NCBI GenBank assembly: GCA_902788095.1
Contig: CADAIT010000014.1
Location: 1-58,989, forward strand
Origin: an uncultured Bacteroidia bacterium
GTDB taxonomy: Bacteria; Bacteroidota; Bacteroidia; Bacteroidales; UBA932
Direction: 5' to 3'
DNA length: 58,989 bases
Numbering within the stretch: position 1 is the first letter of the stretch; the number at the start of each line of letters is the position of its first letter. The notes below the pieces were generated by a model. The model searched no databases and had not been told where the DNA came from. It saw only the letters and a list, made by a program, of their open reading frames with translations. Below are positions 39,977 through 57,285 of this stretch, piece after piece. The position numbers and the translations under genes are program-made.

Positions 39977-40714
39977 ATGAAAACGAACCATTTTTTCAAA
40001 AATGCAGCCCTGGAAGCCCTCCGTGGAAACTGGGGAAAGGCCGTAATCCTTACGCTTTTGTACATCCTGCTGGCCGGCGCCTTTGCCGCTCCCACGGCCT
40101 ATACGTCCGTAAAAATGCAGCAGTACACCCGGGAAAATATCAGCGGAATGAATTCCATTTCCAAATTGGCCTCCATCATCCAGAGTCCGGAATACCTGAC
40201 GCTGCAGCGCCAGTCCAATGGGACCAGCGGCATCACCACCCTGGCGCAGATTTTCCTGCTCATGCCCATCGGCCTGGGCTTTGCCAATGCGTTCCGGCGC
40301 CTCTTGGTGCACAAGGAAAACCGGCTCCTGCACAATACCGTACACATAGCCTTTTCCAATTACTGGCACAAGGTATGGGGCATGTTGCTGATGGCTATTT
40401 TCACCGCCCTGTGGAGCCTGCTCTTCATTATCCCGGGCATTGTCAAGGCCTATGCCTATTCCATGACGCCATATATCCTGGAAGAAAATCCCGAACTGAG
40501 CGCGAATGAGGCCATCGACCGCAGCCGCTTCATGATGCGCGGCCATAAGTTTGACCTCTTCTGGCTGCAGCTCAGCTTCATCGGCTGGTTCTTCCTGTGC
40601 ATCTTCACGGGCGGCATCGGCTTCCTCTGGCTGCAGCCTTACTACAGCTGCGCCAAAGCCGCTTTCTATGAGGAAGTGAAAGCCGACTACGCCCTGAACG
40701 GCGGTCTGGCCTAA
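39977..40714 (+). CDS. DUF975-family integral membrane protein
   Basis: 245 residues from the ATG at 39977 (MKTNHFFKNAALEALRGNW). About five membrane helices are visible (AVILTLLYILLAGAFAAPT, IFLLMPIGLGFANAF, MLLMAIFTALWSLLFIIPGIV, WLQLSFIGWFFLCIFTGGIGFLWL). The conserved KAYAYSMTPYILEENPELSANEAIDRSRFMMRGHK region is the DUF975 signature. The function is unknown. Its last bases overlap the 3' end of the convergent phosphatase gene by 4 bases. Confidence 0.85.
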   Translation: MKTNHFFKNAALEALRGNWGKAVILTLLYILLAGAFAAPTAYTSVKMQQYTRENISGMNSISKLASIIQSPEYLTLQRQSNGTSGITTLAQIFLLMPIGLGFANAFRRLLVHKENRLLHNTVHIAFSNYWHKVWGMLLMAIFTALWSLLFIIPGIVKAYAYSMTPYILEENPELSANEAIDRSRFMMRGHKFDLFWLQLSFIGWFFLCIFTGGIGFLWLQPYYSCAKAAFYEEVKADYALNGGLA

Positions 40715-42648
40715 GCGAGTTTAAGACAAAGCATGGTGAGGTCGTCGCTGGCCTCGGCAATCCCGACATGCGACGCCACCGCAGCATGCATCTTCTCTAC
40801 GACGCCCTGCGCATTTTCCGAAGGGGAAAGTGATGCCAGGGCGTTCATCATGCGCTCGTTGCCGAATTCCTCGTGGTTCTGGTCCTCCGCCTCGTTGAGA
40901 CCGTCCGTGTACAGGAAGATGCGCACGTCGCGCATGTTTTCCATGGTCTGGCCCTCGAATTCGTAGCCGGGCATGATGCCGATGGGCGTGTTGGGCAGGC
41001 AGGACATGAAGCGCGGCTCCGGAGTAAAGAGCACGGGCGGGTTGTGGCCGCAATTGCAGTAGTTCAGACACCCGGTCTTGAGGTCCAGACAGCCGATGAA
41101 CATCGTCACGAACATAAGCTGCTCATTGTGACGGGACATCTCGTTGTTAATCTGGCGGGCCACCTCTTCCGGCGAGTTACCCTGCCAGGACAACACGCGG
41201 AACAGGTTGCAGGCCACGGCCATGAACAGGCTGGCCGGAACGCCTTTGCCGCTTACGTCGCCGATGCAGAAGTAGAGTTGTTCGTCCCGGATAAAGTAGT
41301 CGTACAGGTCTCCTCCCACCTCTTTTGCCGGGGACATAAACGCATATAAATCAACTTCTTTATGATCCGGGAACGGCGGGAATTTGCCGGGAACCATGTC
41401 CATCTGGATGGAACGGGCAATCTGCAGTTCTCCCTCGATGCGCTCCTTCTTGGCGGTGGTCGTCGTGAGTTTGTCGATATACTCTACGAGCGATGTCTGC
41501 ATTTCCGCAAAGGAGCGGCTCAGGACCCCGATTTCGTCGTTCCGCGTATTCTCCGGAAGCACCGTGTTGAAGTTTCCGTAGGCAATGGATTCCGCCTGCA
41601 CCGCCAGCGTCCGCAACGGATTCAGCTGCTTGCGGATGAGCTTGGAGAACACCAGATACATGATCAGCAGACCCAGCAGGACAATGACGATGATAATGTT
41701 CCGCAGGCGATGGAAGCCGCCGAAAACGTCGCTCTCGGGACACACGATGGCCACGCTCCAGCCGGTGGTCATCATGGGTTTGTAGAATACGAAGCAGTCC
41801 ACGTCGTCAAAGCGGATTTCCTGCATCCCTTCTTTCCAGTCCTGCATATCCTCCCCCAGTTTCATGATTTCCGGATTGGGGCTCACCAGCCCTTCCGTGA
41901 AAATGCTCTGGTAAAAGAGCAGCTGCGGGTCCGGATGCACCAAAAAAGTGCCGCCGCGGCCCACCAGGATGGAGTAGGAGTTGGGGTAAGGCTTCACGGC
42001 CGATATGGTTTTCGACAGCCATTCCAGGGAAATGTCCATCGAGAGAGTCCCCACAAAACTGCCATCGTTTCCGATAAGCGGTTTGCAGTAGGATACCATC
42101 ATCTTGGAATCCATGGTTTTGTCGTCGAACTCCTCCTGGTCCGTATAGGGTTCCGTCCAGCAGGGCTGTCCCATCAGTTTGGGCAGCAGATACCAGTCCA
42201 GATAAAAGTACTGGTAACTGTCCTTCCCTTCCTGCTGGGTGTACACGTTTGCGCCAATCCGGTTGGAATAGGCGGAAAAATACCGGCCTTTCTCCTTGAA
42301 GTAATACGGTTCGAAAGATATGGAACAGCCGTTGAGGAAAGCATTGGTGAGCACCACGTCACGGGAAAGGGTGAACATGTAATCCGGATCGTCCAGATGC
42401 TGGTAAATGCGTCCCTCCAGGTTGTTGGCCACCAGCTGCACGTCTTCCAGGATGCCGTTCACGCGGAGAACGGTATTGTCCAGGATGCGGTTGGCGCCCA
42501 AAATAGCCTCCCGACGTACGGCTTTTCTGGCGACGACGGCCATATACCCCAGCGACGCCAGGAAAATGGCGGCGGCGAAAAAGACAATCCACCCGCTCAG
42601 ACGGGCCGACAAAGATTGACGGGCTTGTTTTATATCGGCTATCGGCAT
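40711..42648 (-). CDS. Membrane serine phosphatase (Cache-HAMP-PP2C/SpoIIE)
   Basis: 645 residues. Order: membrane helix 1 (about 19-40), a periplasmic Cache-like sensor (about 45-325), membrane helix 2 (IIIVIVLLGLLIMYLVF), HAMP (about 355-405), a short coiled coil, and a SpoIIE/RsbU-type PP2C phosphatase (about 430-645). The phosphatase metal-binding motifs are SPAKEVGGDLYDYF, FCIGDVSGKGVPASLFMA and EASDDLTMLCLK. Such enzymes dephosphorylate anti-sigma antagonists or STAS proteins; no such partner is in the window. It overlaps the upstream binding-protein gene by 10 bases, so the two are coupled. Confidence 0.9.
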   Translation of the reverse strand: MPIADIKQARQSLSARLSGWIVFFAAAIFLASLGYMAVVARKAVRREAILGANRILDNTVLRVNGILEDVQLVANNLEGRIYQHLDDPDYMFTLSRDVVLTNAFLNGCSISFEPYYFKEKGRYFSAYSNRIGANVYTQQEGKDSYQYFYLDWYLLPKLMGQPCWTEPYTDQEEFDDKTMDSKMMVSYCKPLIGNDGSFVGTLSMDISLEWLSKTISAVKPYPNSYSILVGRGGTFLVHPDPQLLFYQSIFTEGLVSPNPEIMKLGEDMQDWKEGMQEIRFDDVDCFVFYKPMMTTGWSVAIVCPESDVFGGFHRLRNIIIVIVLLGLLIMYLVFSKLIRKQLNPLRTLAVQAESIAYGNFNTVLPENTRNDEIGVLSRSFAEMQTSLVEYIDKLTTTTAKKERIEGELQIARSIQMDMVPGKFPPFPDHKEVDLYAFMSPAKEVGGDLYDYFIRDEQLYFCIGDVSGKGVPASLFMAVACNLFRVLSWQGNSPEEVARQINNEMSRHNEQLMFVTMFIGCLDLKTGCLNYCNCGHNPPVLFTPEPRFMSCLPNTPIGIMPGYEFEGQTMENMRDVRIFLYTDGLNEAEDQNHEEFGNERMMNALASLSPSENAQGVVEKMHAAVASHVGIAEASDDLTMLCLKLA

Positions 42649-43589
42649 AATTCTTCCAAAGTAACGGGACGCGGAATCAGACCGGCCTTCAACATGATGT
42701 CGTTGGTCAGCTGCAGCATGTCCGGACGGATACGGTATTCCTTCTCGCCGGAATCCGGGTCATATTGCAGGTTCAGGATCTCCTTGAGCATCAGGGACTG
42801 CAGGATGCGGTTGGTGGCGATGTGGTTCCTGTCCACATAACGCATCACAATGTCCAGGGCCTGATCCGGATGGGCCTCCGCATAGTCCCAGCCCCGGCGG
42901 CTGGCCCGGGCGAATTTGTCCGCCAGCTCCTTGTGTTTCTCGTAGTATTCCCGGGTAACGTACAGGCCGTCTTCCTGGATGTTGTAACCGTGGTCTGCCA
43001 GGCGGTAAATGCAGTTTTCCGGCAGATTGAAGCCGGCCTGCTTCACCTGGTAGTACTCGTTGTAGGTCATGGCCACAATGGCGTCCAACGCTCCGGCGAT
43101 GTACAGGTTCACCATGGTGGCGGCCTGAATCCACTCAAACCGCAGATTGGCTTCTTTCACCACGCTTTCCAGCAGCTGCGTGAAACCGCCGGCCCAGATG
43201 CCCACTTTGGCGCCGCGCTGCTCCATGGGATTCTTTCCCCTGCGGGAAATCACCACCATCCCGCTGTTCATGGACGTCTGCAGCAGGTTCACCAGCGGAA
43301 CGCCGTTGGCCGCAATTTCCACGGCCTGGGCCAGCTGTAAGGTGGTGGCGTGGCTCAGATGGGAGCGCAGACGGCTTTCCGCGCTCTGGGTGACGTTGGG
43401 ATGGATAATCTGCACGTTCACCCCTTCCTCCTCATAGAAGCCCATATCCTTCGCCACGTAATAACCGGCAAACTGCGCCTGCGCCGTCCACTGGGGGGTA
43501 AACACAAGGGTATCGGATACCTCCCGCGGCCGGGCCGGCAAAAGGAGCGCCGGAAAAAGGGCAAGCAATATGAGGACAAATCGTTTCAT
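42639..43589 (-). CDS. Periplasmic substrate-binding protein, NMT1/THI5-like
   Basis: 316 residues with a signal peptide (ALFPALLLPAR). The fold is the SsuA/NMT1 type: VFTPQWTAQAQFAGYYVAKDMGFYEEEGVNVQIIHP at the N-terminus and a DAIVAMTYNEYYQ segment where ligand-binding residues usually sit. Such proteins normally feed an ABC importer (thiamine precursors, sulfonates), but no permease or ATPase gene is near. The next gene, overlapping by 10 bases, is a membrane phosphatase with a periplasmic sensor. I infer that this is the ligand receptor of a signalling pair. The near-absent leader leaves no room for a TPP riboswitch. Confidence 0.85.
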   Translation of the reverse strand: MKRFVLILLALFPALLLPARPREVSDTLVFTPQWTAQAQFAGYYVAKDMGFYEEEGVNVQIIHPNVTQSAESRLRSHLSHATTLQLAQAVEIAANGVPLVNLLQTSMNSGMVVISRRGKNPMEQRGAKVGIWAGGFTQLLESVVKEANLRFEWIQAATMVNLYIAGALDAIVAMTYNEYYQVKQAGFNLPENCIYRLADHGYNIQEDGLYVTREYYEKHKELADKFARASRRGWDYAEAHPDQALDIVMRYVDRNHIATNRILQSLMLKEILNLQYDPDSGEKEYRIRPDMLQLTNDIMLKAGLIPRPVTLEELCR

Positions 43590-43597
43590 TCGACGTG

Positions 43598-43605
43598 CAA
43601 AGGTA
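43598..43605 (-). promoter_or_regulatory. -7 box of the binding protein-phosphatase operon
   Basis: TACCTTTG on the minus strand lies 8 bases before the ATG at 43589, predicting a leader of about 4-5 bases. Confidence 0.6.
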
Positions 43606-43612
43606 CAAAAAA

Positions 43613-46600
43613 CTAATCAAAATAATTCAAGGAATGCAGATTGTCGAGCATCTGGTCCAGATAGGCCGAGCTGGTAGCGGTCCAATGGAAGCCCAGACGC
43701 ATGAGTATCTGCACGGTAAACTGCGTGGAAGGCCAGTTCAGCACCTGCGGAACCTTGTCCGGAGCCTGGTTGTAGGCTACCAGGGCGGACAGCTGGGGTG
43801 CCTGTTCGGGGTCCGACATGGCCTGCGCCAGTGCAGCGTTGAATTCCTCCAGCTCCACATATTCCAGCGCCTGCTCCCCTACCAGGGACAGCCGGCCCAG
43901 CACATCCTCCATGGGGATGAGGTGGTTGTTGGACACGTGCAGCACACAGGTCTCGCGGGGCGTTTCGCTCAGCAGGACCACGGCGCGGGCCGCCTCGTCG
44001 ATGGGCGTGAATTCCATCCTTGCGGTAAGCGAGGCGTACGGAACCTTTCCCAGCCGCCTGCAGGCCCTGAGCCTTCCCATGGCGGCGTTGTTGCCCATGT
44101 TCATCTGGAATTCGCCGTCCGTGGTCCGGGGCGACAGATTGCCGGCGCGCAAAATTTTGGCGTTGAGCGTTCCGTTTACCATGTGCTCCAGAATCAGGCG
44201 CTCCGCCAGGAACTTGGAATGGACATACTGGTTGCCGGTCTTCTGCCCGAAGAACAGCTCTTTCTCATTGAATACGATGGGCTGGATGCCCTCGGTGCTG
44301 CCGCCCACGCTCTCCGTGGAAATGTGTACCAGGCGGGCCTGGGACTGCTCGCAGAAGGACACGATGTTTTTGACGCCGCCGTAGTTCACGTCCTCGATGT
44401 CCGTGCCCTTGGAGAAGTGCTTCACGTTGGCCGCGCTGTTGATGACCAGGTCCACGGGCGTACCCGACATCAGGATGGACTGGAACACCTCGGGTTCGGT
44501 GATATCGCCCTGGATAATGCGGATGCGCTTGCCCAGGAGCGGGAAGAAGTCCTCCTCGAAGTAATACACCAGCATTTCCTTGAGCCAGCCCGTGGTGGAA
44601 CCGGCCTTGCGGGAGCGGATGAGGCACCAGATGACGGTATCCTCCGGCGTATTGAGCACCAGTTCCCGCAGGATGTGGATGCCCAGGAAACCGGTGACGC
44701 CCGTCAGGAGGATATTCTTCCCCAGCGGCTGCCGCCCGCCCTTCAGGAAAGCTTCCAGCGTATTGCCGGAGAGCAGCTTATGGATGGCCGTGTAGTCATA
44801 ATCTTTCACGCTCACTTCGCTCTGCGCGGAGTCGCCGCTCAGGAACGCCGCCAGGCTGCGGGCCGTCGGATGCGCAAAGACATCGGCATAGGCAAACGTG
44901 AGCCCGGCTTTCTGGGCCGATACCAGCACGTTGGTAACCACCAGCGAGGTGCCGCCCAGGTCGAAGAAATTGTCCGTAGCGCCTACCCGGTCCATTTCTA
45001 GCACCGAGGCAAAAATATCGCACAGGGTCTTCTCCAGGGGCGTTTCCGGGGCCACGTATTCCACCGTGGCGCGAAGGGCCGGGGCGGGCAGCGCCCTGCG
45101 GTCCACCTTCTGGTTCACGTTCAGCGGAATCCGGTCCACCTGATTGAAGCTTTCCGGCACCATGTACGGCGGTTTGCGCTCGCGGATGAACGCCCCGGCC
45201 GCCTTGGCGTCCAGTTCCCCGTCCATCACCACATACGCGGCCAGGAACTTGCCGCCGGAAGGCTTGTCGAAGGCCTGCACGGTCACGTCCTTCACGCCCG
45301 GCATCTCGCGCAGCACGGCCTCCACTTCCTTGGTCTCGATACGGAAACCGCGGATTTTCACCATGGAGTCCCGTCGGCCCACAAACTCGATGTTGCCGTC
45401 CGGCCGGTAGCGCACGATGTCACCGGAACGATAGGCGCGCATCCCCTTGCAATAGGGATTGTCGATGAAGCTTTCCGCCGTCTTCTCCGGCTGGTTCAGG
45501 TAGCCGCGTCCCACGCCCGCACCGGCAATGAGCAGTTCGCCCGGAGCGCCCACCGGCAGGCGGCGGAACTGGCGGTCCACCACGTACAGGCGCCAGTTGT
45601 CCAGCGGATGTCCGATGGGGATGTTCTCCTCCCGCTCCTGAACCTTGAAAATGGTGGAGAAAATGGTACATTCCGTGGGGCCGTAGCCGTTGTAGAAAGC
45701 GTATTTGGGCGGGTCCACGGACACCAGTTTCTCGCCGCCCACGGACAGGTGTTTGAGCGAAGGGTTCGCCGGGAAGTACTTCTCGTACATCACGCCCACC
45801 TGCGTGGTCATGAAACTGTGCGTAATGCCGTTGTCGGCAATGAAACGGTCCAGGGCCATCATGTCGTGGCGCGTTTCTTCCGGGATGATGCACACCGCCG
45901 CGCCGCTGGTAAGGGCGGGATACATGTCCATCATGCAGGCGTCGAAGCCGTAACTGGCGTAGGCGGCCACCTTGTCCTGCGGCTTGAGGTCATAATAGGC
46001 CCGGTACCAGGCGCAGAAATTCACCAGGTTCCGGTGTTCCAGCATCACGCCCTTGGGGACGCCGGTGGAGCCGGAGGTATAGAGCAGGACAAAGAGGCTG
46101 TCCGGAGCCGGGCCCTCGGGCACCTTGCCGTCCTCCAGCGTTTTAATAGCATCCGTCGTCAGCACGGGGCCCCGGTAATCCTTCAGGAGGGGCAGGAGGT
46201 CTTTGTCGGCAATCAGCAGCCTGGCCGATGCGTCGCCAATCATGAAGTTCAGCCGCTCCTCGGGATAGGAAGCGTCCAGCGGCTGGTAGGCGCAGCCGGC
46301 TTTCAGGATGCCCAGGGAGGCCAGCACCATCCACTGGTCCCTGCCGATGAGCACCGACACCACGTCCTCGCGGCCCAGCCCCATACCGCCGATATACGCC
46401 GCCAGGCGGTCCGTGATGCGGTCCACGTCCGCGTACGTCCAGGAAACGCCCCCGGCCACCACCGCCACATGGTCCGGCGCTGCGGCCGCCTGTCTGCGGA
46501 AGAGCGAGACGATGGTTTCGTCGCAGCTGACCTCCCGCGTATAGCGGTTGAAGCCGTCCAGCTCGCTGAGCTGCGACTCGGAAAGGAAGGGAACCTCTTC

Positions 46601-49600
46601 CACGCTGTCGTACTGCAGCATCCCGCGCGCCACGGCGGCAAGCGTCCTGGCCAGGTTCTGCATGATGCCCCGGCTGTAGAGTTTGTCGTCGTAGGCCACC
46701 ACAAAGCGTTCCTTGCCTTCTTCGCCATCGACAAAAATGCTTACCGGGAACTTGGGATAGCCGGTTTCCAGCACTTCGCTCCGCATGCCGGTATAGCCTT
46801 CCACCACCCCTACCTCATAGGCGAGCATAATCTGGGGCTGGAAGCCGAAGTCCGACGCCACCAGCGAGAAGGGATAATTCTCGTGCCGAAGCGACTCGGA
46901 AAAGTCCGCGTGAACGGCCTTCAGGTAATCGTCCACGGTTCCGGGGCGCACGTCGCCGCTCAGGGCGAGCGTGTTCACGAACATGCCCATGGTGCCGGCG
47001 GTCTTCAGCTTGCCGCGGCCGCCGGACACGGTACATAGATACACTTTCCGCTTTCCGGTAAAGGCCGATATGGCCATGTACGTGGCCGCCAGGAAGTAGC
47101 TGGCCGGCGTAATGCCCAGCGCCTTGCAGCGCTCCGCGATGCCGGGGGCCTGCACCGTTTCCGCCACATACTCCTCCCGGCCCTTGCCTTCGTGGGCGGG
47201 CATGTCGGAAAGAATCTCGGAGGCTTCCTCCAGGCCGCTCAGCTGTTCGGCAAAGAAGGCCTTGTCCTGCTCATAGGACGCGGAACCCACCTCCTCCTTC
47301 TGGGCCGCCGCATATTGCGCATACGTGAATTTCTCCGCCTCCGGCTGCGTTCCCTGCAGGGCCGCCGCCAGCTGCTTGCCGAAAATGTCATAGGACGCAC
47401 CGTCGAATATCAGGTGGTGGAAATCGGTGGCCAGCACCACGCCCTCCGGCGTATCCAGCACCTTCACCCGGTACAGCGGCGCCTCGGACAGCTTGAAGGG
47501 CGCCACAAAAGTTTCGCGGAAGCTTTCCGCCACCACGGGCTCCTCCGTCTTATCCATGCTTACCTGCGGCTCCAGTTCCACGGGGACGGCATACACCTTG
47601 CCTTCAATCTGCCGGAACACGGTGTTCAGGCTGGGATGGGCCTTGAGAACGGCCACGGCGGCATCGCGCACGGCTTCCGGCGTCACGCCCTCAGGGAAAC
47701 GCCAGAGCATGGGAATGTTGTACAGGGTCTCATGCGGCGCCTTCATGCAGTCAAAATAGACCCCTTCCTGCTGGAAGGTAAGCTCCTGCGGCTCCGTGAC
47801 GGCCGATGCCTCTTCCTGCGCCTTCCCCCCGCCCGCCATGAGCACTTTCAGCACTTCGTTCTCGATACTCTGCAGGGTGGCCGTGCGGGCAAAACTGCCC
47901 ATGTCCAGCTGTACGCCGTATTTCTTGTACAGTTCCGTGGCTATGCGCAGGGCGCTCAGCGAGCTGAGCCCGTAGTACATGAGCGGTTCCGTGAGGCCGA
48001 AACCGTCTATGTTGGCGCTCTCTCGAATCAGGGTGGCGATTTCCTCTTCCAGGATGTTCAGCGGGGCGTTTTCCGCCGCTTTGGCCGCACTTTGCCGCTG
48101 CGGTTTGGGCAGGGCTTTCCTGTCCACTTTCTGGTTCACGTTCAGCGGTATGGCCTCTATCTGCATGGTGATGGCCGGCACCATGTACGGCGGCTTGCTT
48201 TCCGCGATAAAGGCGTTGAGCTTGTCGATGTCCACAGGGGTATCGGCCACGATGTAAGCCGCCAGGAACTTGCCGCCGCCTTCGGCCTCGTCAAAGGCCT
48301 GCACGGTGACGTCCTTGATGCCCTCGTACGCACGGATGACGGTTTCCACTTCCTTGAGCTCGATGCGGAAGCCGCGAATCTTCACCTGGGAGTCCTTGCG
48401 GCCGATGTATTCAATCTCGCCGTCGGCCCGGTAGCGGACCACGTCGCCGGTGCGGTAAAGGCGCCGGTAAGCCTTGTCGCTTTCATAGGGATTGTCGGCA
48501 AAGACCTCCGCCGTCTTGTCCGGACGGTTCAGGTAGCCGTCGCCCACCTGCTCGCCGGCCTCCAGGAGCTCTCCGCAGGCCCCCACGGGCAGTCTTTGGC
48601 CGCCCTTGGCCACCACGTAGCAGTGGATGCCGGGAATGGGCTTGCCGATAGGCACTTCCGCCTCCGGTTCCACTTCCTTGCACACCACGTAGGCCAGGCT
48701 CTCGGTGGGTCCGTAACAGTTGAAAAGGCGGTACTCCGGCAGCGGGAAGGAGGAGAGTTTTTCGCCGCCGGTATAGAGCGCTTCCAGGCCCTTGCACCTG
48801 GGGTAGTTGATAACGAACTGGGTGGCTACCTGGGTGGTCATGAAGGCATGCGTGATGCCGTTTTCCTCATAGTAGCGGTGCAGTGCGGGCAAATCCAGGC
48901 GAATCTCTTCCGGAATGATGTACAGCGCGGCGCCGGATGCCAGGGTGCCGAACAGGTCGCTCACGAAGGCGTCGAAGCCGAAGCTGGCGTAGGCAGTCAT
49001 GCGGGAATGTTTGCCCAGGCCGATGATGGCGCAGTGGCGCCGGGCGTAGAGGCTTACGCTCCGGTGCGGCAGCATGCAGCCTTTGGGCTTGCCGGTGGTG
49101 CCGGAGGTGTACAGCAGGACGAAGAGGTCGTCGGCCTTGGGGCGGGCCGTGGGCTTGCCTTCCGGCAGCGTGCCTATCTCCTTGGTGACAAGGCGCGGCC
49201 CTTCGAAGCCTTCCACGTCCAGGCCCTCGTCATGAATGAGCAGGGCGCTTTCCGCATCCTGCACCATGAAGCGGAGGCGGTCCATCGGGTAGGACGGGTC
49301 CAGCGGCTGATAGGCGCAGCCGGCCTTGAGGGCGCCCAGCGGGGCAATCATGTTGAATTCGTTTCGGCCCAGCAGGATGGAAACCACTTTGCCGGTACCG
49401 ATATTTTTCTCAATATAAGCGGCCAGCCGGTCCGAGAGGGCATCCACCTGCCCGTAGGTCAGGCGCAGGTCCCGGTACACCAGCGCAGGGCTGGCCGGGT
49501 CCTGCTCCCGGAACAGGTCCAGGAGGGTTTTTTCGGCCGTGATGCCATCTTCCGCCGGCTGGAAGCCGTCCAGGGTTTCCAGCTGTGCCGGGCTGGCGTA

Positions 49601-50821
49601 TGACAGGTCCCGGACGGTTTCCGCATCGGCCATGGACAGGACCGTCGCGGTGAAACTTTCCGCCAGGCTGCGGAGGATATCCTCGCTGTAGCGGCCGCTG
49701 CGATACCAGAAACGCATCTTGTACGGCCCTTCCGCGGCCGTGAAGAACTCGATGGACAGGCCGATTCCCGGGGAATTGGTACGCAAATCCTCCCCTTCTA
49801 TCCGGTGGTCTCCCAGCTCCAGCACGGGGTGCTCGCCCAGGAAGTTGCCCTGGAAACCGAAGTTGATGCCGTTGGTGAGGCCCAGTTCACGGACGCAGTC
49901 CGCAAAGGAATAGAAACCGCGGGAACGGATGCCGAGGGTTTGGCCCTTCATGGCCTCCAACACGTCCTTGAGCGCTTTGTCCGGCTGCGCTTCCACATAC
50001 ACGGGAATGGTGTGCACCTGCATGCCAATACCGCCGGAAAAACCCTTGCGGCCATTCCAGATACTGGTGAAGGCGGCTTTGTCGTCCGCATTCCAGGCGG
50101 CCAGGGTGAGGCCGAACGCCGCCGTGAAAAGAATGCTGTCCGCATAGCGGTAGCGCTCCAGCACGGCCTGCATGGCGTGCCGGTCCAGCGCCAGGTCCAC
50201 GTCCAGCTCCCTGTAAGGCCCCTCTTCCCCGTACTTGTCCGGAATAATGCGGGACTCGGTTTCCGCTCCCGGGCCGAAGGTGCCGGCGTACCACTCCCGT
50301 GCCTCCTTGTAGGCGTCGGAATTGCGTTGCTCCTGCTCTTTCAGGGCCACGTCCGCACCACTCATCCTTTCCTTTTCCAGGGATTCTCCGTTGAAGGCTT
50401 TGTTCAGGTCCGTGAGGAAAAGATAAGTGGAGGCGCCGTCGAAGAGGATGTGGTGGGCATCGAAATAGAAGTAATTGCCCGCCGCCGTCCGGTAAAGTTC
50501 CGTACGCGTGAGAAGGCCGCTCGGCATGTCCAGCGGCATGGCCTTGGCCAGCGTGCTCCTGTCCAGCACATTGTAAACGGGCACCTCCGCCTGCGGATTG
50601 TCCGGGGTTTCCATGCAGGGCTCCCCGTCATGGAGAACCAGGCGCGAAAGCATGTACGGATGCGCCAGCTGAACCGCCTCCAAGGCCGTTTTCAGGCGGG
50701 CGAGATCAATGCTGTCCGGAAGTTTGAACAGCATGGCAAGCTGGTAGTTGCCGTCTTCTTCCTTGAGTCCTTGGCTGGCAAGGTAAATGCTGAGCTGCGC
50801 TTGGGAAAGAGGGGATATCAT
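43613..50821 (-). CDS. Nonribosomal peptide synthetase, C-A-T-C-A-T-reductase
   Basis: 2402 residues, complete. C1 has HHILFDG at about 123; A1 has LLYTSGTTGKPKG (about 567), YGPTES and GRKDSQVKIRGFRIEL. T1 is at about 953 with GLSSLSAL in place of LGGxS; C2 has HHLIFDG (about 1134). A2 has LLYTSGSTGVPKG (about 1584) and YGPTEC. T2 has DLGGTSL (about 1957). The terminal thioester reductase has the NAD(P)H site GVTGFLG (about 2041) and the catalytic pair YVHSK (about 2199). Two residues are joined and released reductively as an aldehyde, which may cyclise to a dihydropyrazinone or pyrazinone. A starter C domain raises the possibility of N-acylation. Single-gene synthetases of this architecture are known from gut bacteria. 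No phosphopantetheinyl transferase is in the window. Every catalytic motif looks intact. Confidence 0.95.
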   Translation of the reverse strand: MISPLSQAQLSIYLASQGLKEEDGNYQLAMLFKLPDSIDLARLKTALEAVQLAHPYMLSRLVLHDGEPCMETPDNPQAEVPVYNVLDRSTLAKAMPLDMPSGLLTRTELYRTAAGNYFYFDAHHILFDGASTYLFLTDLNKAFNGESLEKERMSGADVALKEQEQRNSDAYKEAREWYAGTFGPGAETESRIIPDKYGEEGPYRELDVDLALDRHAMQAVLERYRYADSILFTAAFGLTLAAWNADDKAAFTSIWNGRKGFSGGIGMQVHTIPVYVEAQPDKALKDVLEAMKGQTLGIRSRGFYSFADCVRELGLTNGINFGFQGNFLGEHPVLELGDHRIEGEDLRTNSPGIGLSIEFFTAAEGPYKMRFWYRSGRYSEDILRSLAESFTATVLSMADAETVRDLSYASPAQLETLDGFQPAEDGITAEKTLLDLFREQDPASPALVYRDLRLTYGQVDALSDRLAAYIEKNIGTGKVVSILLGRNEFNMIAPLGALKAGCAYQPLDPSYPMDRLRFMVQDAESALLIHDEGLDVEGFEGPRLVTKEIGTLPEGKPTARPKADDLFVLLYTSGTTGKPKGCMLPHRSVSLYARRHCAIIGLGKHSRMTAYASFGFDAFVSDLFGTLASGAALYIIPEEIRLDLPALHRYYEENGITHAFMTTQVATQFVINYPRCKGLEALYTGGEKLSSFPLPEYRLFNCYGPTESLAYVVCKEVEPEAEVPIGKPIPGIHCYVVAKGGQRLPVGACGELLEAGEQVGDGYLNRPDKTAEVFADNPYESDKAYRRLYRTGDVVRYRADGEIEYIGRKDSQVKIRGFRIELKEVETVIRAYEGIKDVTVQAFDEAEGGGKFLAAYIVADTPVDIDKLNAFIAESKPPYMVPAITMQIEAIPLNVNQKVDRKALPKPQRQSAAKAAENAPLNILEEEIATLIRESANIDGFGLTEPLMYYGLSSLSALRIATELYKKYGVQLDMGSFARTATLQSIENEVLKVLMAGGGKAQEEASAVTEPQELTFQQEGVYFDCMKAPHETLYNIPMLWRFPEGVTPEAVRDAAVAVLKAHPSLNTVFRQIEGKVYAVPVELEPQVSMDKTEEPVVAESFRETFVAPFKLSEAPLYRVKVLDTPEGVVLATDFHHLIFDGASYDIFGKQLAAALQGTQPEAEKFTYAQYAAAQKEEVGSASYEQDKAFFAEQLSGLEEASEILSDMPAHEGKGREEYVAETVQAPGIAERCKALGITPASYFLAATYMAISAFTGKRKVYLCTVSGGRGKLKTAGTMGMFVNTLALSGDVRPGTVDDYLKAVHADFSESLRHENYPFSLVASDFGFQPQIMLAYEVGVVEGYTGMRSEVLETGYPKFPVSIFVDGEEGKERFVVAYDDKLYSRGIMQNLARTLAAVARGMLQYDSVEEVPFLSESQLSELDGFNRYTREVSCDETIVSLFRRQAAAAPDHVAVVAGGVSWTYADVDRITDRLAAYIGGMGLGREDVVSVLIGRDQWMVLASLGILKAGCAYQPLDASYPEERLNFMIGDASARLLIADKDLLPLLKDYRGPVLTTDAIKTLEDGKVPEGPAPDSLFVLLYTSGSTGVPKGVMLEHRNLVNFCAWYRAYYDLKPQDKVAAYASYGFDACMMDMYPALTSGAAVCIIPEETRHDMMALDRFIADNGITHSFMTTQVGVMYEKYFPANPSLKHLSVGGEKLVSVDPPKYAFYNGYGPTECTIFSTIFKVQEREENIPIGHPLDNWRLYVVDRQFRRLPVGAPGELLIAGAGVGRGYLNQPEKTAESFIDNPYCKGMRAYRSGDIVRYRPDGNIEFVGRRDSMVKIRGFRIETKEVEAVLREMPGVKDVTVQAFDKPSGGKFLAAYVVMDGELDAKAAGAFIRERKPPYMVPESFNQVDRIPLNVNQKVDRRALPAPALRATVEYVAPETPLEKTLCDIFASVLEMDRVGATDNFFDLGGTSLVVTNVLVSAQKAGLTFAYADVFAHPTARSLAAFLSGDSAQSEVSVKDYDYTAIHKLLSGNTLEAFLKGGRQPLGKNILLTGVTGFLGIHILRELVLNTPEDTVIWCLIRSRKAGSTTGWLKEMLVYYFEEDFFPLLGKRIRIIQGDITEPEVFQSILMSGTPVDLVINSAANVKHFSKGTDIEDVNYGGVKNIVSFCEQSQARLVHISTESVGGSTEGIQPIVFNEKELFFGQKTGNQYVHSKFLAERLILEHMVNGTLNAKILRAGNLSPRTTDGEFQMNMGNNAAMGRLRACRRLGKVPYASLTARMEFTPIDEAARAVVLLSETPRETCVLHVSNNHLIPMEDVLGRLSLVGEQALEYVELEEFNAALAQAMSDPEQAPQLSALVAYNQAPDKVPQVLNWPSTQFTVQILMRLGFHWTATSSAYLDQMLDNLHSLNYFD

Positions 50822-50847
50822 AAGGCCTATTGGTTATCTTGTACTGA

Positions 50848-50855
50848 CAAATATA
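50848..50855 (-). promoter_or_regulatory. -7 box of the NRPS gene
   Basis: TATATTTG on the minus strand lies 26 bases before the ATG at 50821. It shows that the NRPS is transcribed on its own and not from the genes to its right. Confidence 0.6.
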
Positions 50856-50938
50856 CAAAGAATTACTGTCATTTACCAACTGCGTTGTGTTTTAGCGGAG
50901 TGAGATACAATCACCGCGCCCGGTATGACAAAAGGGAT

Positions 50939-51026
50939 GCGGGTAACTGGCGAGAAAATGACCAACTACCCGCAAAAAGCGCTGATTTTGCGGGTAAGTG
51001 GCAAGAAATTTACCAGTTAACCGCAC
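50939..51026. repeat. 88-bp double-hairpin repeat, copy 2
   Basis: It has the same length and design as 4322-4409: GCGGGTAACTGG/CCAACTACCCGC arms in the first half and GCGGGTAAGTGG/CCAGTTAACCGC in the second, with A/T-rich loops. Base changes between the copies often keep arm pairing. Confidence 0.75.
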
Positions 51027-51170
51027 AAGGGGCCGGGAGGAGATGCCCGGTCGGGTCGAGCATGACAGGAAGGACGGGTATGACAGGAAAGCCGGGCAGG
51101 ATGAGGGATGGCCGGGCAGGATGGGATGGTCGGGAAGGACGGGAAGGACGGCCAAGGGAGCGTTTGGGGG
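51027..51170. repeat. Purine-rich imperfect tandem repeat block
   Basis: Short G/A-rich units (variants of GACAGGAA, CCGGGCAGGATG and GGGAAGGACGG) recur in tandem on the plus strand, following a CATGACAGGAAGG motif. The reverse strand is correspondingly pyrimidine-rich. It resembles dispersed intergenic repeats of other Bacteroidetes. No protein signature is seen. Confidence 0.5.
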
Positions 51171-51472
51171 CGAAAACGTGGCGACAGAAGACCAAAAGGT
51201 CCGCCAGTGCTACGGTTTGGGCCATTTCCGTGCCCATGGAGAGACCGGGGTGTCACTAAATTGTTGACCAACAGCCGTTTCCGATTATTCCTCGGCTCTT
51301 TTTGCGCCGAGGATTTTTGGTAAGTGGTTGATTGTTAACCAGTTCCCGGCCAGCCATGAGATATTGTTAATCCGGTGCTGCATGGAAAACGCCATTCATC
51401 CCGGGCTGCCGGGGAAACGCCATTCGCAGAGATGGGGATGCTTACTGTCCAAACACCTTGCCTTTTTACAGA

Positions 51473-51507
51473 ATCCCCACATCTTCAGCGATGGAAGATG
51501 TGGGGAT
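51473..51507. repeat. 14-bp perfect inverted repeat
   Basis: Arms 51473-51486 (ATCCCCACATCTTC) and 51494-51507, with a 7-base loop. It lies 38 bases beyond the stop of the minus-strand adhesin-like gene. There is no T-run, so it may mark or protect the 3' end of that mRNA rather than terminate it intrinsically. Confidence 0.65.
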
Positions 51508-51544
51508 GAGTTATTGGATGTGGAGTAAAGATCCGGTGCGTGAG

Positions 51545-53497
51545 CTAATTCAGAATAAACATTATGCTGTTCACTCTTGACTGGTCAAGCCAGTCGTCGC
51601 TGTCAAATAGAGACACCGTACTTGCATTGCCTGTCCATGTGACTTTATATCCAGTCATGTAATCGCCACTAACCGTCCAGCCAGTACCCAGGTTTGCATA
51701 TTCCCACGCATAGCCATCGTCGGGGTCTATTTCTATCTTGGTGAAGTTCTTACTGAGCGAATTCGAGAATACAAAGTTACCTTTAGCGCCATAATGGCTA
51801 CACGCTATTGTGGCATCTCCCCAATAACTAATACCGAATACAGCATTTCCGTTCATAGTCAACGTAATGTTGCTATTGGTATAAGGCGCTCCTTGTTGAT
51901 AGCTATATTCGCTACCCCAATTGCTTTCATCCCATACAATCGCACCTTCCGGATAAACTGTAATCGAGCAGGTGGCCGTTGCACCACCGCCGTCGTTGGC
52001 GGTAGCGGTGATGGTGGCAGTGCCGCCAGCCACGGCGGTAACTTCACCCGTAGAGGCATTGACTTTGGCGACGGAAGTATTGCTGCTGCTCCAGCTCACT
52101 GTCTTATCTACGGCATCGGAAGGGGAAGAGTATGAAACGGAAAGCGTTACGGTGCCTCCGATAAACAGGTTGGCTGATGTCTTATTCAAGTTGATGTAAG
52201 ACAATTTCTTCGCATTCATCGGCACACGGATGTCGTAGTATTTGCCATTTTCGAAGGTAATGCCACTCTTGCTAAAAGTATAGGTACCACTTCCGACCGT
52301 GGCCGTCAGGGTGTATGTATCGGCGCCGGCGTTCTCGTTACGCAGAGCCACGGTGAGCTCGCTTGCAGCGGCATCGGGCGTTACGGTAATATTGCCATAA
52401 GAGGTTCCTTGACCAAAGTCGGCATACTTGAACAGCCGCATTTCCGAGAGTTGCATATATCCTCCATTCCCTTTGTTGTTGCTTATTTCAAGGCGGAAAT
52501 AGCGGTACTCACCGGGAGTAGCCACATCAAAGTCCGTCTCAGTATTATTTGCATTGGGCAGGTCATTGTTGTTGACTTTCGTATCGATGACAGTCCAACT
52601 GTCCCCACTGTTCTTTTTGGCTTTCAGCACCCAGTCTGTAGGATTTCGATTAGATTGCCCCCCCGTGTCATTGCCTGTTCTGAGCATATATCCTTCCACC
52701 TGGATGGCACTGGCGGTGTGGAACTCGATGTACCAGCCACCACTGGGCTTATTCTGGCCCCATTTAGTACCCAGGTCGTTGTCAACCAACTTATTGTGCA
52801 CCTCGTTGTCATTAAATCCTCCCGAACCTGCATCCACGGTGTAGTATCCGTTTCCGTAATAGTAGGTCTTGGGCTCCAATCCCCGGTAACTCTTATTAGT
52901 TACTAACTTGCCACTGTTAGCCCTGATTGTCAAACTATTAACTGCAACGGGGCTGACGCCGTCGGTCAGGCGGAACTTCACAATAGCCTGTTGGCTGGTG
53001 AAGTTGGCGGCATCGGTAGTGATGGTAGTACCATCTACCTCGTTCACCGTCACGGTAGCTGCGGCGTAGTCGTATTTCTTCTCGATGGAGTTCTCGTCAC
53101 TCAAAAGAATACCCTTCTGGCCGGTGTAGTTCCATTCGGCACGGGGGAAGAGGAAGTTCAGATTATCACCTTTATTGGCACCGGTGACGGCGCCCGTCAG
53201 GGTGGTGCTGCCGGTTTCGCTGGCGGCGGCAGTCAGGGTGCCCATCGGATCACCGCTCCAGTCTCCGGCGAAAACGCTCACCTGGTCGGTATCGGCCCAC
53301 TTTACGTTCAGGACCTGGCCGTCCAGGGACAGCGCCTTGGTATCGTCACCCTTGGTGGCATCCACGGTAAGGGTGTACGTCTTTGCCGACGGCTGCTCTG
53401 GGGCAGGAGCAACGACAGGAGTCATTTCTTTTTGGCAGGAGGCCAGGGCTGCGATGCTGACAGCGCTCAGGCAAGAAATCTTCAACATGCTTTTCAT
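51545..53497 (-). CDS. Multidomain surface lipoprotein with discoidin and Ig-like (Big2) domains
   Basis: 650 residues from the ATG at 53497, chosen because AAGGAGG lies 9-15 bases before it and the lipobox signal (SIAALASC) follows directly. The N-terminal about 200 residues resemble fimbrillin/Mfa-like surface proteins (FPRAEWNYTG, KFRLTDGVSPVAVNSLTIRA). A discoidin-like F5/8C domain follows (about 205-365: NKLVDNDLGTKWGQN, YFRLEISNNKG), then a Big2 domain (about 420-505: VSWSSSNTSVAKVNASTGEVTAV) and a C-terminal beta domain. It probably sits on the cell surface and binds glycans or matrix. The ligand is unknown. A 54-codon gene precedes it by 16 bases. Confidence 0.85.
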   Translation of the reverse strand: MKSMLKISCLSAVSIAALASCQKEMTPVVAPAPEQPSAKTYTLTVDATKGDDTKALSLDGQVLNVKWADTDQVSVFAGDWSGDPMGTLTAAASETGSTTLTGAVTGANKGDNLNFLFPRAEWNYTGQKGILLSDENSIEKKYDYAAATVTVNEVDGTTITTDAANFTSQQAIVKFRLTDGVSPVAVNSLTIRANSGKLVTNKSYRGLEPKTYYYGNGYYTVDAGSGGFNDNEVHNKLVDNDLGTKWGQNKPSGGWYIEFHTASAIQVEGYMLRTGNDTGGQSNRNPTDWVLKAKKNSGDSWTVIDTKVNNNDLPNANNTETDFDVATPGEYRYFRLEISNNKGNGGYMQLSEMRLFKYADFGQGTSYGNITVTPDAAASELTVALRNENAGADTYTLTATVGSGTYTFSKSGITFENGKYYDIRVPMNAKKLSYINLNKTSANLFIGGTVTLSVSYSSPSDAVDKTVSWSSSNTSVAKVNASTGEVTAVAGGTATITATANDGGGATATCSITVYPEGAIVWDESNWGSEYSYQQGAPYTNSNITLTMNGNAVFGISYWGDATIACSHYGAKGNFVFSNSLSKNFTKIEIDPDDGYAWEYANLGTGWTVSGDYMTGYKVTWTGNASTVSLFDSDDWLDQSRVNSIMFILN

Positions 53498-53505
53498 GAT
53501 GCTTT

Positions 53506-53512
53506 CCTCCTT
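53506..53512 (-). promoter_or_regulatory. Strong Shine-Dalgarno sequence
   Basis: AAGGAGG on the minus strand lies 8 bases before the ATG at 53497. Such a match is rare in this window and in Bacteroidetes generally. The window's own 16S 3' end carries CCTCC, so pairing is possible. Confidence 0.65.
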
Positions 53513-53513
53513 C

Positions 53514-53678
53514 TTACCAAGTCCAAATACCATTACCGTCCAGCGAACCGGAATCAATCCCGTCGTTGGCGTTTCCGTACGAGCCACGCCGTCCGCTTTG
53601 GCAGACAACGCCTTCAGCCTTCACCTCCACAGTCTCCGCCATGGGGGGGGCATAAATGATTTTGTTCTTTGGTTCCAT
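53514..53678 (-). CDS. 54-residue peptide ending in WTW, upstream of the surface lipoprotein
   Basis: A 55-codon frame with ATG at 53678 and TAA at 53514-53516, just inside the same transcription unit as the lipoprotein. The peptide reads MEPKNKIIYAPPMAETVEVK at the start, has CQSG at about 26-29, a Gly/Asn/Asp-rich middle and ends GNGIWTW. It has no signal peptide or membrane helix. Small proteins with a P..E....(E)G..C.SG core and an aromatic end occur before fimbrillin-like or adhesin genes in Bacteroidales, from memory. The -7 box at 53721-53728 precedes it. Function is unknown; a leader peptide or chaperone-like role is speculation. Confidence 0.7.
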   Translation of the reverse strand: MEPKNKIIYAPPMAETVEVKAEGVVCQSGRRGSYGNANDGIDSGSLDGNGIWTW

Positions 53679-53720
53679 TTATTGTTGTGTATTACGATGT
53701 TACTCCCCATACGAATTGAG

Positions 53721-53728
53721 CAAATATA
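53721..53728 (-). promoter_or_regulatory. -7 box of the small peptide-surface lipoprotein operon
   Basis: TATATTTG on the minus strand, 42 bases before the ATG at 53678. Confidence 0.6.
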
Positions 53729-53799
53729 TAAAACAAATACTGCTCGGACACAACTGCCCGGGCAGAAATTGACGCAGAATGTTTTTTGGGCGCAATTTT

Positions 53800-54942
53800 T
53801 TACGCAGGATTACATTTTTTAAACCATTCGCGTGGCGAAACGCCTTCCTCGCGGGTGAACACGTTGGAGAAAACCGTGCGGGAAGAGAAGCCGCAGCGCG
53901 CGGCGATTTCGTTCATTTTCAGATCCGGTTGCTCCAGTTTCAGGCGCTTGGCCTCCGCGACGCGATAGCGGTTCACAAACTGGTAGAAGGTGCAGCCATA
54001 TTCCGCCTTGATGAAGTGGGACAAGTAGGTCCGGTTCATGGGCAGGACCGCCCCCAGGTCCGACAGCTGGAAGGCCGGATTGACATAGGGCTTTTCCTCC
54101 TCCATCCAGCGGTCCAGTTTTTGGCGAAGTTCACTGTTCTCGGGCGAGGGCGCGGGTTCCGTTATGGCCTCCGGCGCCGGTTCCCTTGCCTTTTCCCGCC
54201 CACGCACCATCTCCCAAGGGTCCTTGCGGTAAAGGATTTGCTCCGTGCTGTAGGCGAACATGGCAATCGTGAACCACAGCTGGGTGAAGCCGCGTGCCGG
54301 GGCCTGGGTGACGCAGATGAAAATATAATTGACGCCCACCAGCGCCACCATCCACAGGTAGTGGACAATCCACTGGACATCAAACGCATCCAGGGTGGAG
54401 AAATTCTCTTCGCACCAGTTTTTATACGTGCGGACATGGGTAATAAGCAGCGGAATGAGCGCAAAAGGATATAACGCGATAAGGAGCCTCAGGCTTAGGG
54501 GAATCAGGTAATCCAGGCCTACCAGCACACACATGGGAAGAACTTGCCATAGCCCGGTCCGGAACGACAGCCATCCGGGCCGGACGGCTTCCGTAGGATA
54601 CATCAGCAGCAGCCAGCCCAGCAGGTTGCCCAAAAGCAGCTCTATGGTAGTGATATGCTGAGCGCCTATATCCATTATCTGAGAATGGGCAAAGATATGG
54701 CCGACAAGATAGGTTGAGTCGATCAGACCCCAGATGAGGAGCGTCCAGCCCCATACTCTCCGGATACGCAGGCCGTCCGCATGTTTGAAAACAAGGAATG
54801 AGCCGAAAAACGTCACGGTAACCGTGGTGGTAAACAGGAGCGGAGAAAGGATTTGCTCGAAGGCACCAGCAGGGATATAGCGCGAAAGCCACAGACTAAG
54901 CGCTACGCAAACGGTGGTAATGATGAAAAACCCTTGTTTCAT
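53800..54942 (-). CDS. Membrane-bound AraC-family transcription regulator
   Basis: 380 residues from the ATG at 54942 (MKQGFFIITTVCVAL). The first 230 residues carry about seven membrane helices (FIITTVCVALSLWL, ILSPLLFTTTVTVTFFGSFLVF, LLLGNLLGWLLLMYP, VLPMCVLVGLDYLIPLSLRLLIALYPFALIPLLI). A charged linker precedes an AraC HTH (about 275-378: LSDLGAVLPMNRTYLSHFIKAEYG, MNEIAARCGFSSRTVFSNVFTREEGVSPREWF). It lies directly behind the surface-protein promoter and is likely to control it or a nearby gene. The signal sensed is unknown. Confidence 0.87.
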   Translation of the reverse strand: MKQGFFIITTVCVALSLWLSRYIPAGAFEQILSPLLFTTTVTVTFFGSFLVFKHADGLRIRRVWGWTLLIWGLIDSTYLVGHIFAHSQIMDIGAQHITTIELLLGNLLGWLLLMYPTEAVRPGWLSFRTGLWQVLPMCVLVGLDYLIPLSLRLLIALYPFALIPLLITHVRTYKNWCEENFSTLDAFDVQWIVHYLWMVALVGVNYIFICVTQAPARGFTQLWFTIAMFAYSTEQILYRKDPWEMVRGREKAREPAPEAITEPAPSPENSELRQKLDRWMEEEKPYVNPAFQLSDLGAVLPMNRTYLSHFIKAEYGCTFYQFVNRYRVAEAKRLKLEQPDLKMNEIAARCGFSSRTVFSNVFTREEGVSPREWFKKCNPA

Positions 54943-54991
54943 ATCACAAACCAGAATCCTCCGCAAAAAGTGAAACGGGCGGCCCAAAAAT

Positions 54992-55426
54992 TTACCGAAT
55001 TTCGTTGGCGTTGTAAATATAAGTATAGTCTTGATTCCGGCTAAAAATCCAGCGGTCTGCGGCTACGGTGGTATACGTATCCCAGCCCACAATGTTCTCC
55101 GGACGGGCCGGTGCCTGCACGGGAAGGACAAAGTGTCCCTCTTCCTTGAAGGCACGGTACGCCTGTGAGGCGTAGCTTCCATCCGGCCTGACACCGCCGC
55201 TGAGCTCGATATAAGGCAGGGCGCGGCCCTGGGCGTAGGTCATGTCTTCCACAGGCTCCACGCCTACGCCACCGGAGGAAATGTAGAACGTATCCTCAGC
55301 GGTGACCCCTTCCTGATAGGTGAGCGTGGGGGTATCGCCCAGATTCCTGATTTGATGCACCTTGGGACTCCGGTTGCACGCAGCCAGGAGCAGCAAAGCG
55401 GTCAGAATGATGAAAGTTCGTCTCAT
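54992..55426 (-). CDS. Small lipoprotein of unknown function
   Basis: 144 residues from the ATG at 55426 (MRRTFIILTALLLLAACN), with a clear lipobox LAAC. The remainder is soluble, beta-rich and without a family I can name (TLTYQEGVTAEDTFYISSGGVG, YRAFKEEGHFVLPVQAPARP, NQDYTYIYNANEIR). Its -7 box directly precedes the ATG. The downstream AraC regulator begins 50 bases after its stop on the same strand. Confidence 0.75.
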   Translation of the reverse strand: MRRTFIILTALLLLAACNRSPKVHQIRNLGDTPTLTYQEGVTAEDTFYISSGGVGVEPVEDMTYAQGRALPYIELSGGVRPDGSYASQAYRAFKEEGHFVLPVQAPARPENIVGWDTYTTVAADRWIFSRNQDYTYIYNANEIR

Positions 55427-55430
55427 ACTG

Positions 55431-55438
55431 CAAATGTA
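55431..55438 (-). promoter_or_regulatory. -7 box of the small lipoprotein gene (predicted leaderless)
   Basis: TACATTTG on the minus strand is followed by 4 bases (CAGT) and the ATG at 55426. The same CAGT-ATG junction occurs at the radical SAM gene. Confidence 0.6.
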
Positions 55439-55486
55439 CAAAAAATCCCATCAGCGCCCAACGGTACCGACGAATCGGCCGCTTAT

Positions 55487-57274: not shown

Positions 57275-57277
57275 GCC

Positions 57278-57285
57278 CAAAAATA
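57278..57285 (-). promoter_or_regulatory. -7 box of the ABC exporter gene (predicted leaderless)
   Basis: TATTTTTG on the minus strand is followed by 3 bases (GGC) and the ATG at 57274, the tightest spacing in the window. Confidence 0.6.

Follow-up and report, generated by a model that had tools for sequence, protein, structure and literature searches.

The window analysed here, a stretch of 58,989 nucleotides from an uncultured Bacteroidia bacterium, a rumen-type species of Bacteroidales, carries a stand-alone dimodular non-ribosomal peptide synthetase (NRPS) that probably makes an N-acyl dipeptide aldehyde and no pyrazinone. The NRPS gene (43613..50821) lies on the minus strand and encodes a protein of 2402 aa with the domain order C-A-T-C-A-T-R. 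Its open reading frame is exact and free of internal stops, and the plus-strand frame over the same region is interrupted by stops. Pfam profiles matched two Condensation, two AMP-binding, two PP-binding, one AMP-binding_C and one NAD_binding_4/Epimerase domain in the protein, with a lowest E-value among these domains of 7.6e-136. The N-terminal condensation domain C1 (49547..50809, minus strand, as are all domains below), read here as a putative acylating starter, carries HHILFDG at residue 123 and is followed by the adenylation domain A1 (48107..49540; nine-residue code DASFYGCAY) and the carrier domain T1 (47822..48064; serine in GLSSL, residue 951). The second module comprises C2 (46637..47788; HHLIFDG at residue 1135), which is predicted to form the peptide bond, A2 (45107..46501; code DAMFSGGIF) and T2 (44840..45028; serine in GGTSL, residue 1956). 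The core of the terminal thioester reductase R (43952..44716) contains TGVTGFLG (residue 2040) and YVHSK (residue 2199). YTSG and YGPTE are each present twice, and all core motifs searched for were found. The preliminary description had proposed the same intact architecture at these positions without stating the strand, and the domain and motif searches bear it out. Searched with Rfam at gathering scores, the whole window yielded tRNAs only.

With two A-T modules, a C domain between them and a thioester reductase at the end, the protein is a reductase-terminated dimodular NRPS of the gut and rumen kind, as had been suggested earlier, and is an intact, ordinary-looking representative of an already known kind of synthetase. 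The T-R part matches 6vtj, which we take to be an archaeal PCP-R didomain, over the whole length of that structure (481 residues, E 3.6e-89), followed by the AusA reductase (4f6l; E 5.8e-41). This homology supports the earlier proposal of reductive release as a dipeptide aldehyde. The producers of ruminopeptin (Ruminococcus bromii) and of N-octanoyl-Met-Phe-H (BGC0001686, Clostridium) belong to a different phylum from the host of the window. Their synthetases are likened to the window NRPS by product class: both are gut NRPSs of the class predicted here (PMC8518294, PMC12327764). AusA/PznA of Staphylococcus, responsible for the aureusimines, is likewise dimodular and reductase-terminated. However, the published domain order of AusA (about 273 kDa), A1-T1-C-A2-T2-R, includes no starter C domain, and its free-amine products cyclise to pyrazinones (PMC12153313). 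A further counterpart is mru_0068 of the methanogen Methanobrevibacter ruminantium, with two C-A-T modules and a terminal reductase like the window NRPS, although its last domain is called a thioesterase in the main text and a thioester reductase in the legend of Figure S8 (PMC2812497). The host of mru_0068 is archaeal, and the likeness is one of description. Across 8,160 rumen genomes, Bacteroidota included, 5,346 NRPS clusters have been counted (PMC8241843); the words 'reductase', 'aldehyde', 'condensation' and 'phosphatase' are absent from the main text of that survey.

The expected chemistry hinges on C1. It spans positions 6-445 of the 456 of the Pfam Condensation model (E 2.6e-31) and, compared with six relatives, has dN/dS values of 0.15-0.20, against 0.11-0.20 for C2 in the same comparison; C1 is under purifying selection. 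Its predicted structure is that of a complete C domain (pLDDT 89.5). Foldseek listed 50 solved structures for it, with TM scores, normalized on the query, of 0.67-0.80. The 15 top-ranked of these are from Txo, TycC and LgrA, with starter domains lower, CDA C1 from rank 16 and RzmA from rank 39. By sequence, C1 compares weakly with PDB entries, and starter and elongation subtypes are inseparable by either sequence or fold. An N-terminal C domain with its active-site motif is a feature shared with ruminopeptin-like synthetases. The genome, 83% complete with 2.16 Mb in 28 contigs, gave no Condensation-domain match beyond the two of the NRPS. Because no upstream module was found and C1 is intact and constrained, C1 is best read as a putative acylating starter. 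Several observations count against acylation. Starter domains rank below elongation domains among the solved structures. Relative to the three nearest relatives, no other domain is as weakly conserved as C1 (80-82% identity, compared with 84-95% for the other domains). With the genome 83% complete, an upstream partner could also be missing from the assembly, and a number of relatives do have another NRPS frame next to the first.

In the proposed pathway, both carrier domains would be armed by a phosphopantetheinyl transferase, for which the genome has one gene (233 aa) on a different contig from the NRPS. C1 would cap the amino acid loaded by A1 with an acyl group, most likely a fatty acyl, drawn from acyl-CoA or acyl-ACP, C2 would couple this acylated residue to the one loaded by A2, and R would reduce the thioester and release an N-acyl dipeptide aldehyde, a step in print for homologues. 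An amine capped by the acyl group could not attack the aldehyde, and therefore no pyrazinone ring would form; the cyclisation foreseen in the preliminary description is thus probably wrong, given an intact and constrained C1 with no upstream module found. The reactive aldehyde, of a type known for protease inhibition, would instead persist and may inhibit cysteine or serine proteases. N-octanoyl-Met-Phe-H and ruminopeptin are both N-acyl dipeptide aldehydes made by gut NRPSs (PMC8518294), and the N-acyl tail may stabilise dipeptide aldehydes of this type (PMC8210680).

The family of the window NRPS is common in Bacteroidota. Of 353 pattern hits from a single scan across species genomes, 349 were relatives, and the best 80 were kept, representing 79 loci. 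Seventy-seven of these loci are titled as Bacteroidota groups and two as 'bacterium' only; many carry titles of rumen or ruminant-gut metagenomes. Within the genus of the window, 10 of 61 genomes gave matches that extend beyond 1100 residues at 59% identity or higher, and five more contain other NRPS pieces, so the gene is patchily distributed. The comparison of C1 across this family is, in our view, the most interesting part of the analysis. Among the 97 open reading frames of the NRPS cluster, 81 exceed 1900 aa and were aligned and placed in a tree. C1 is full in 69 of them, reduced to its C-terminal lobe in seven and absent from three; the remaining two (L011 and L044) are cut by contig ends and were assigned no state. 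HHxxxD[G/A] is kept in 67 of the 69 full domains. On the unrooted FastTree phylogeny, the catalytic lobe or the entire C1 was lost at least four times, and the changes forced by the starred branches also number four. We infer losses rather than gains because C-lobe remnants remain. A search of the ten loci with shortened genes for remnants of the catalytic lobe itself found none: the strong matches were to C2 or to a complete synthetase neighbouring the shortened gene of L008, and four weak matches (E 0.36-0.92) lie far off and look like chance. For L032 and L015, this search had little upstream sequence to work on, 515 and 1818 bases, respectively. All three states occur within the genus of the window, where C1 is present in five of ten genes (one of them contig-cut), halved in one and absent from four (G037 judged from coordinates only), although these genomes overlap with the 79 loci and are not independent evidence.

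Selection on the C-terminal lobe mostly differs between the half and full forms. In four of five pairs of half-C1 genes the lobe is relaxed (dN/dS 0.25-0.43), with the caveat that the five pairs share five genomes, whereas pairs of full-C1 genes with that lobe fully aligned show dN/dS of 0.11-0.21. L011/L017, a pair with only 71 codons aligned, has a value of 0.27. The exception among the half-C1 pairs, L012/L016 (dN/dS 0.09), is not relaxed and counts against the acylation reading. Judged from their domain content, relatives that lack the catalytic lobe or the whole of C1 are the likelier pyrazinone makers.

These losses also bear on the possibility that C1 in the window is catalytically idle and that the enzyme, like AusA, releases a dipeptide aldehyde with a free amine, which then closes to a dihydropyrazinone or pyrazinone ring. 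Relatives evidently dispense with C1, and the best NCBIfam model for the window NRPS is that of AusA (NF047350; 979.6 bits), a synthetase with pyrazinone products (PMC12153313). Residue 356 of the window protein aligns to position 338 of this model (length 2373), so that a large N-terminal region is possible without acylation. However, the score falls far below the model cut-off of 2500, the HHxxxDG motif of C1 is intact, its dN/dS is close to that of C2 and its predicted fold is complete, unlike the fast-diverging lobe left in four of the five pairs of lobe-less relatives. We therefore consider an idle C1 unlikely and retain the acylating starter.

Nine-residue adenylation codes were extracted from the 81 aligned synthetases, window included, with code positions mapped by GrsA numbering. 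The A2 code of the window, DAMFSGGIF, recurs in 44 of the 81, and there are only 10 distinct A2 codes overall, compared with 42 distinct A1 codes; the aldehyde residue would therefore be rather conserved and the first residue variable. To our knowledge, neither code of the window matches a described one, and we claim no amino acid for either. Eleven of the 81 synthetases (for instance, L060, L064 and L075) have the A2 code DAQSRGCVA, which is quite unlike the main code and suggests a different aldehyde residue in this subgroup. Eight of the ten shortened genes have the A2 code DAMFSGGIF, and the other two, L032 and L080, have DAMFSGAIF. The A1 codes of the eight shortened genes nearest to the window differ from that of the window at 1-5 of the nine positions, with L032 and L080 differing more. 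On these codes, a product switch through loss of C1 would mainly concern the cap.

Upstream of the NRPS, the window, L004 and L005 share a conserved TTTGTATATTTG even though their flanks differ; in L006 and L007 it is unaligned. This conservation supports the earlier claim that the gene has its own promoter. The predicted Bacteroidota-type -7 box, TATATTTG (50848..50855, minus strand), is likewise conserved in L004 and L005. The box consensus, which we take to be TAnnTTTG, occurs 39 times in the window, compared with 18.4 expected. An imperfect tandem repeat with periods of 9 and 18 lies further upstream (51064-51151). Tailoring enzymes next to the NRPS, whose absence had been noted before, were indeed not found. 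In L005:8120-17209, an ABC exporter gene directly upstream of the NRPS is 97% identical to the one at window 55487-57280, where AraC, Big_2 and a small gene separate it from the NRPS (window 43613-57280); the NRPS/ABC site thus seems common to L005 and the window, but rearranged.

Downstream of the NRPS on the same strand are genes for an NMT1-type periplasmic binding protein (42639..43589, minus strand, 316 aa), with a Sec-type signal recognized by eye, and a Cache-HAMP-SpoIIE sensor phosphatase (40711..42648, minus strand, 645 aa) in which Pfam matched no kinase domain. No intrinsic terminator was found in 43300-43700. The three genes could form one signalling operon that senses the product or its target: the binding-protein gene follows the NRPS after a 23-base gap and overlaps the phosphatase gene by 10 bases, the gene order is kept in L004, and 36 of 45 family loci have a SpoIIE-cluster gene no more than 5 kb from the NRPS. 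In G047, moreover, the pair is located about 2.6 kb from a different NRPS on the same contig. Against a single operon, a second box, TACCTTTG (43598..43605, minus strand), lies in the gap between the NRPS and the binding-protein gene, also in L004, and hints at a separate promoter for the downstream pair. Furthermore, the L005 NRPS is 85% identical to that of the window but lacks such a pair nearby. Of the 61 genus genomes, 14 encode the binding protein, in every case with the phosphatase adjoining it, yet only one of the five genomes with both pair and NRPS has them on the same contig (G005 could not be judged, its NRPS being cut by the contig end). A shared signalling operon is accordingly improbable, and the binding protein and phosphatase are best read as an independent sensor pair that is usually located elsewhere.

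The wider family presents a different picture. The 45 loci are those in which 5 kb or more of sequence flanks the NRPS on either side. From the number of copies per genome, about 0.8 of them would be expected to have a SpoIIE-cluster gene within 5 kb, against the 36 observed, although the loci are mutually related and the counts hence not independent. The nine without one are L005, L007, L008, L016, L018, L035, L058, L059 and L080. In all seven genomes with one SpoIIE match, that match sits near the NRPS. Other recurrent neighbours in the 45 loci are STAS (21), an outer-membrane barrel (20), MatE (10) and a phosphopantetheinyl transferase (8), frequently in the order SpoIIE, STAS, outer-membrane barrel, NRPS, in some loci with MatE next; no sigma factor gene was identified among them. 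Because the gene caller took the longest non-overlapping open reading frames, genes were lost to antisense frames (for example, the ABC gene at 55487-57280 and STAS in L090), and these neighbour counts may be underestimates. Membership of the SpoIIE cluster was assigned by BLAST, with some short pieces among the members, and Pfam was run on the proteins of L014, the window and contig C18; the L014 member, the one of its type scanned, is a Cache-SpoIIE-HATPase fusion. The neighbours of mru_0068, namely, serine phosphatases, an anti-sigma antagonist and MatE (PMC2812497), resemble those at the loci of these Bacteroidales relatives.

In the clade of the window itself, the SpoIIE link is mostly absent, and the window NRPS, which differs in this from mru_0068, is not flanked by a SpoIIE-HATPase and STAS module. 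Instead, both genes are found as an adjacent pair on contig C18 (L090:6104-8592), encoding a SpoIIE-HATPase fusion with dCache (724 aa) and a STAS protein (102 aa), which hold the sole above-cut-off HATPase_c_2 match and the sole STAS match of the genome. A gene for an M20 peptidase follows the pair on the same strand. That the C18 module is linked in trans to the window NRPS is a guess.

Tandem synthetases occur in several relatives. L008 (L008:3965-17245) has an A-T-C-A-T-R gene without C1 followed directly by a full C-A-T-C-A-T-R gene, the two with the same A2 codes and with A1 codes that differ at one of nine positions. In L045, L059, L064 and others, one NRPS reading frame is immediately succeeded by another, and some of these relatives may be multi-gene assembly lines. 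It is very improbable that C1 of the window accepts an aminoacyl or peptidyl donor from another synthetase to give a product larger than a dipeptide: the top-ranked solved structures for C1 are elongation C domains, the genome is incomplete and a second NRPS frame lies beside or near the first in, for example, L008, L019, L035, L045, L056, L059 and L064, but the genome yielded no further Condensation domain and both L008 neighbours are complete through the reductase.

Taken together with the acylating role preferred for C1, these observations allow a broader reading, which we put forward tentatively and regard as rather unlikely as a whole. The N-terminal C domain may have acted as a chemical switch in the evolution of rumen Bacteroidales, with repeated loss of its catalytic lobe converting N-acyl dipeptide aldehyde synthetases into free-amine pyrazinone formers and leaving the aldehyde-residue code almost unaltered. 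In addition, production in the wider family may be governed by a dedicated Cache-SpoIIE-kinase/STAS partner switch, shared with a methanogen, whose target would have to differ from a classical anti-sigma/sigma pair. In our literature search, conducted mostly outside subscription papers, we found neither recurrent loss of a starter domain described for rumen NRPSs nor a partner switch described for NRPS loci of Bacteroidota. The occurrence of full, half and absent C1 within one genus amounts to a natural experiment on the role of a starter domain, and the recurrent SpoIIE/STAS neighbours provide a candidate regulator, open to testing, for the NRPS products of the rumen and perhaps of methanogens too. 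If C1 acylates, the product in the rumen would be a reactive, long-lived protease inhibitor and not a pyrazinone formed by rapid cyclisation, and capped aldehydes and pyrazinones should differ in their targets and lifetimes.
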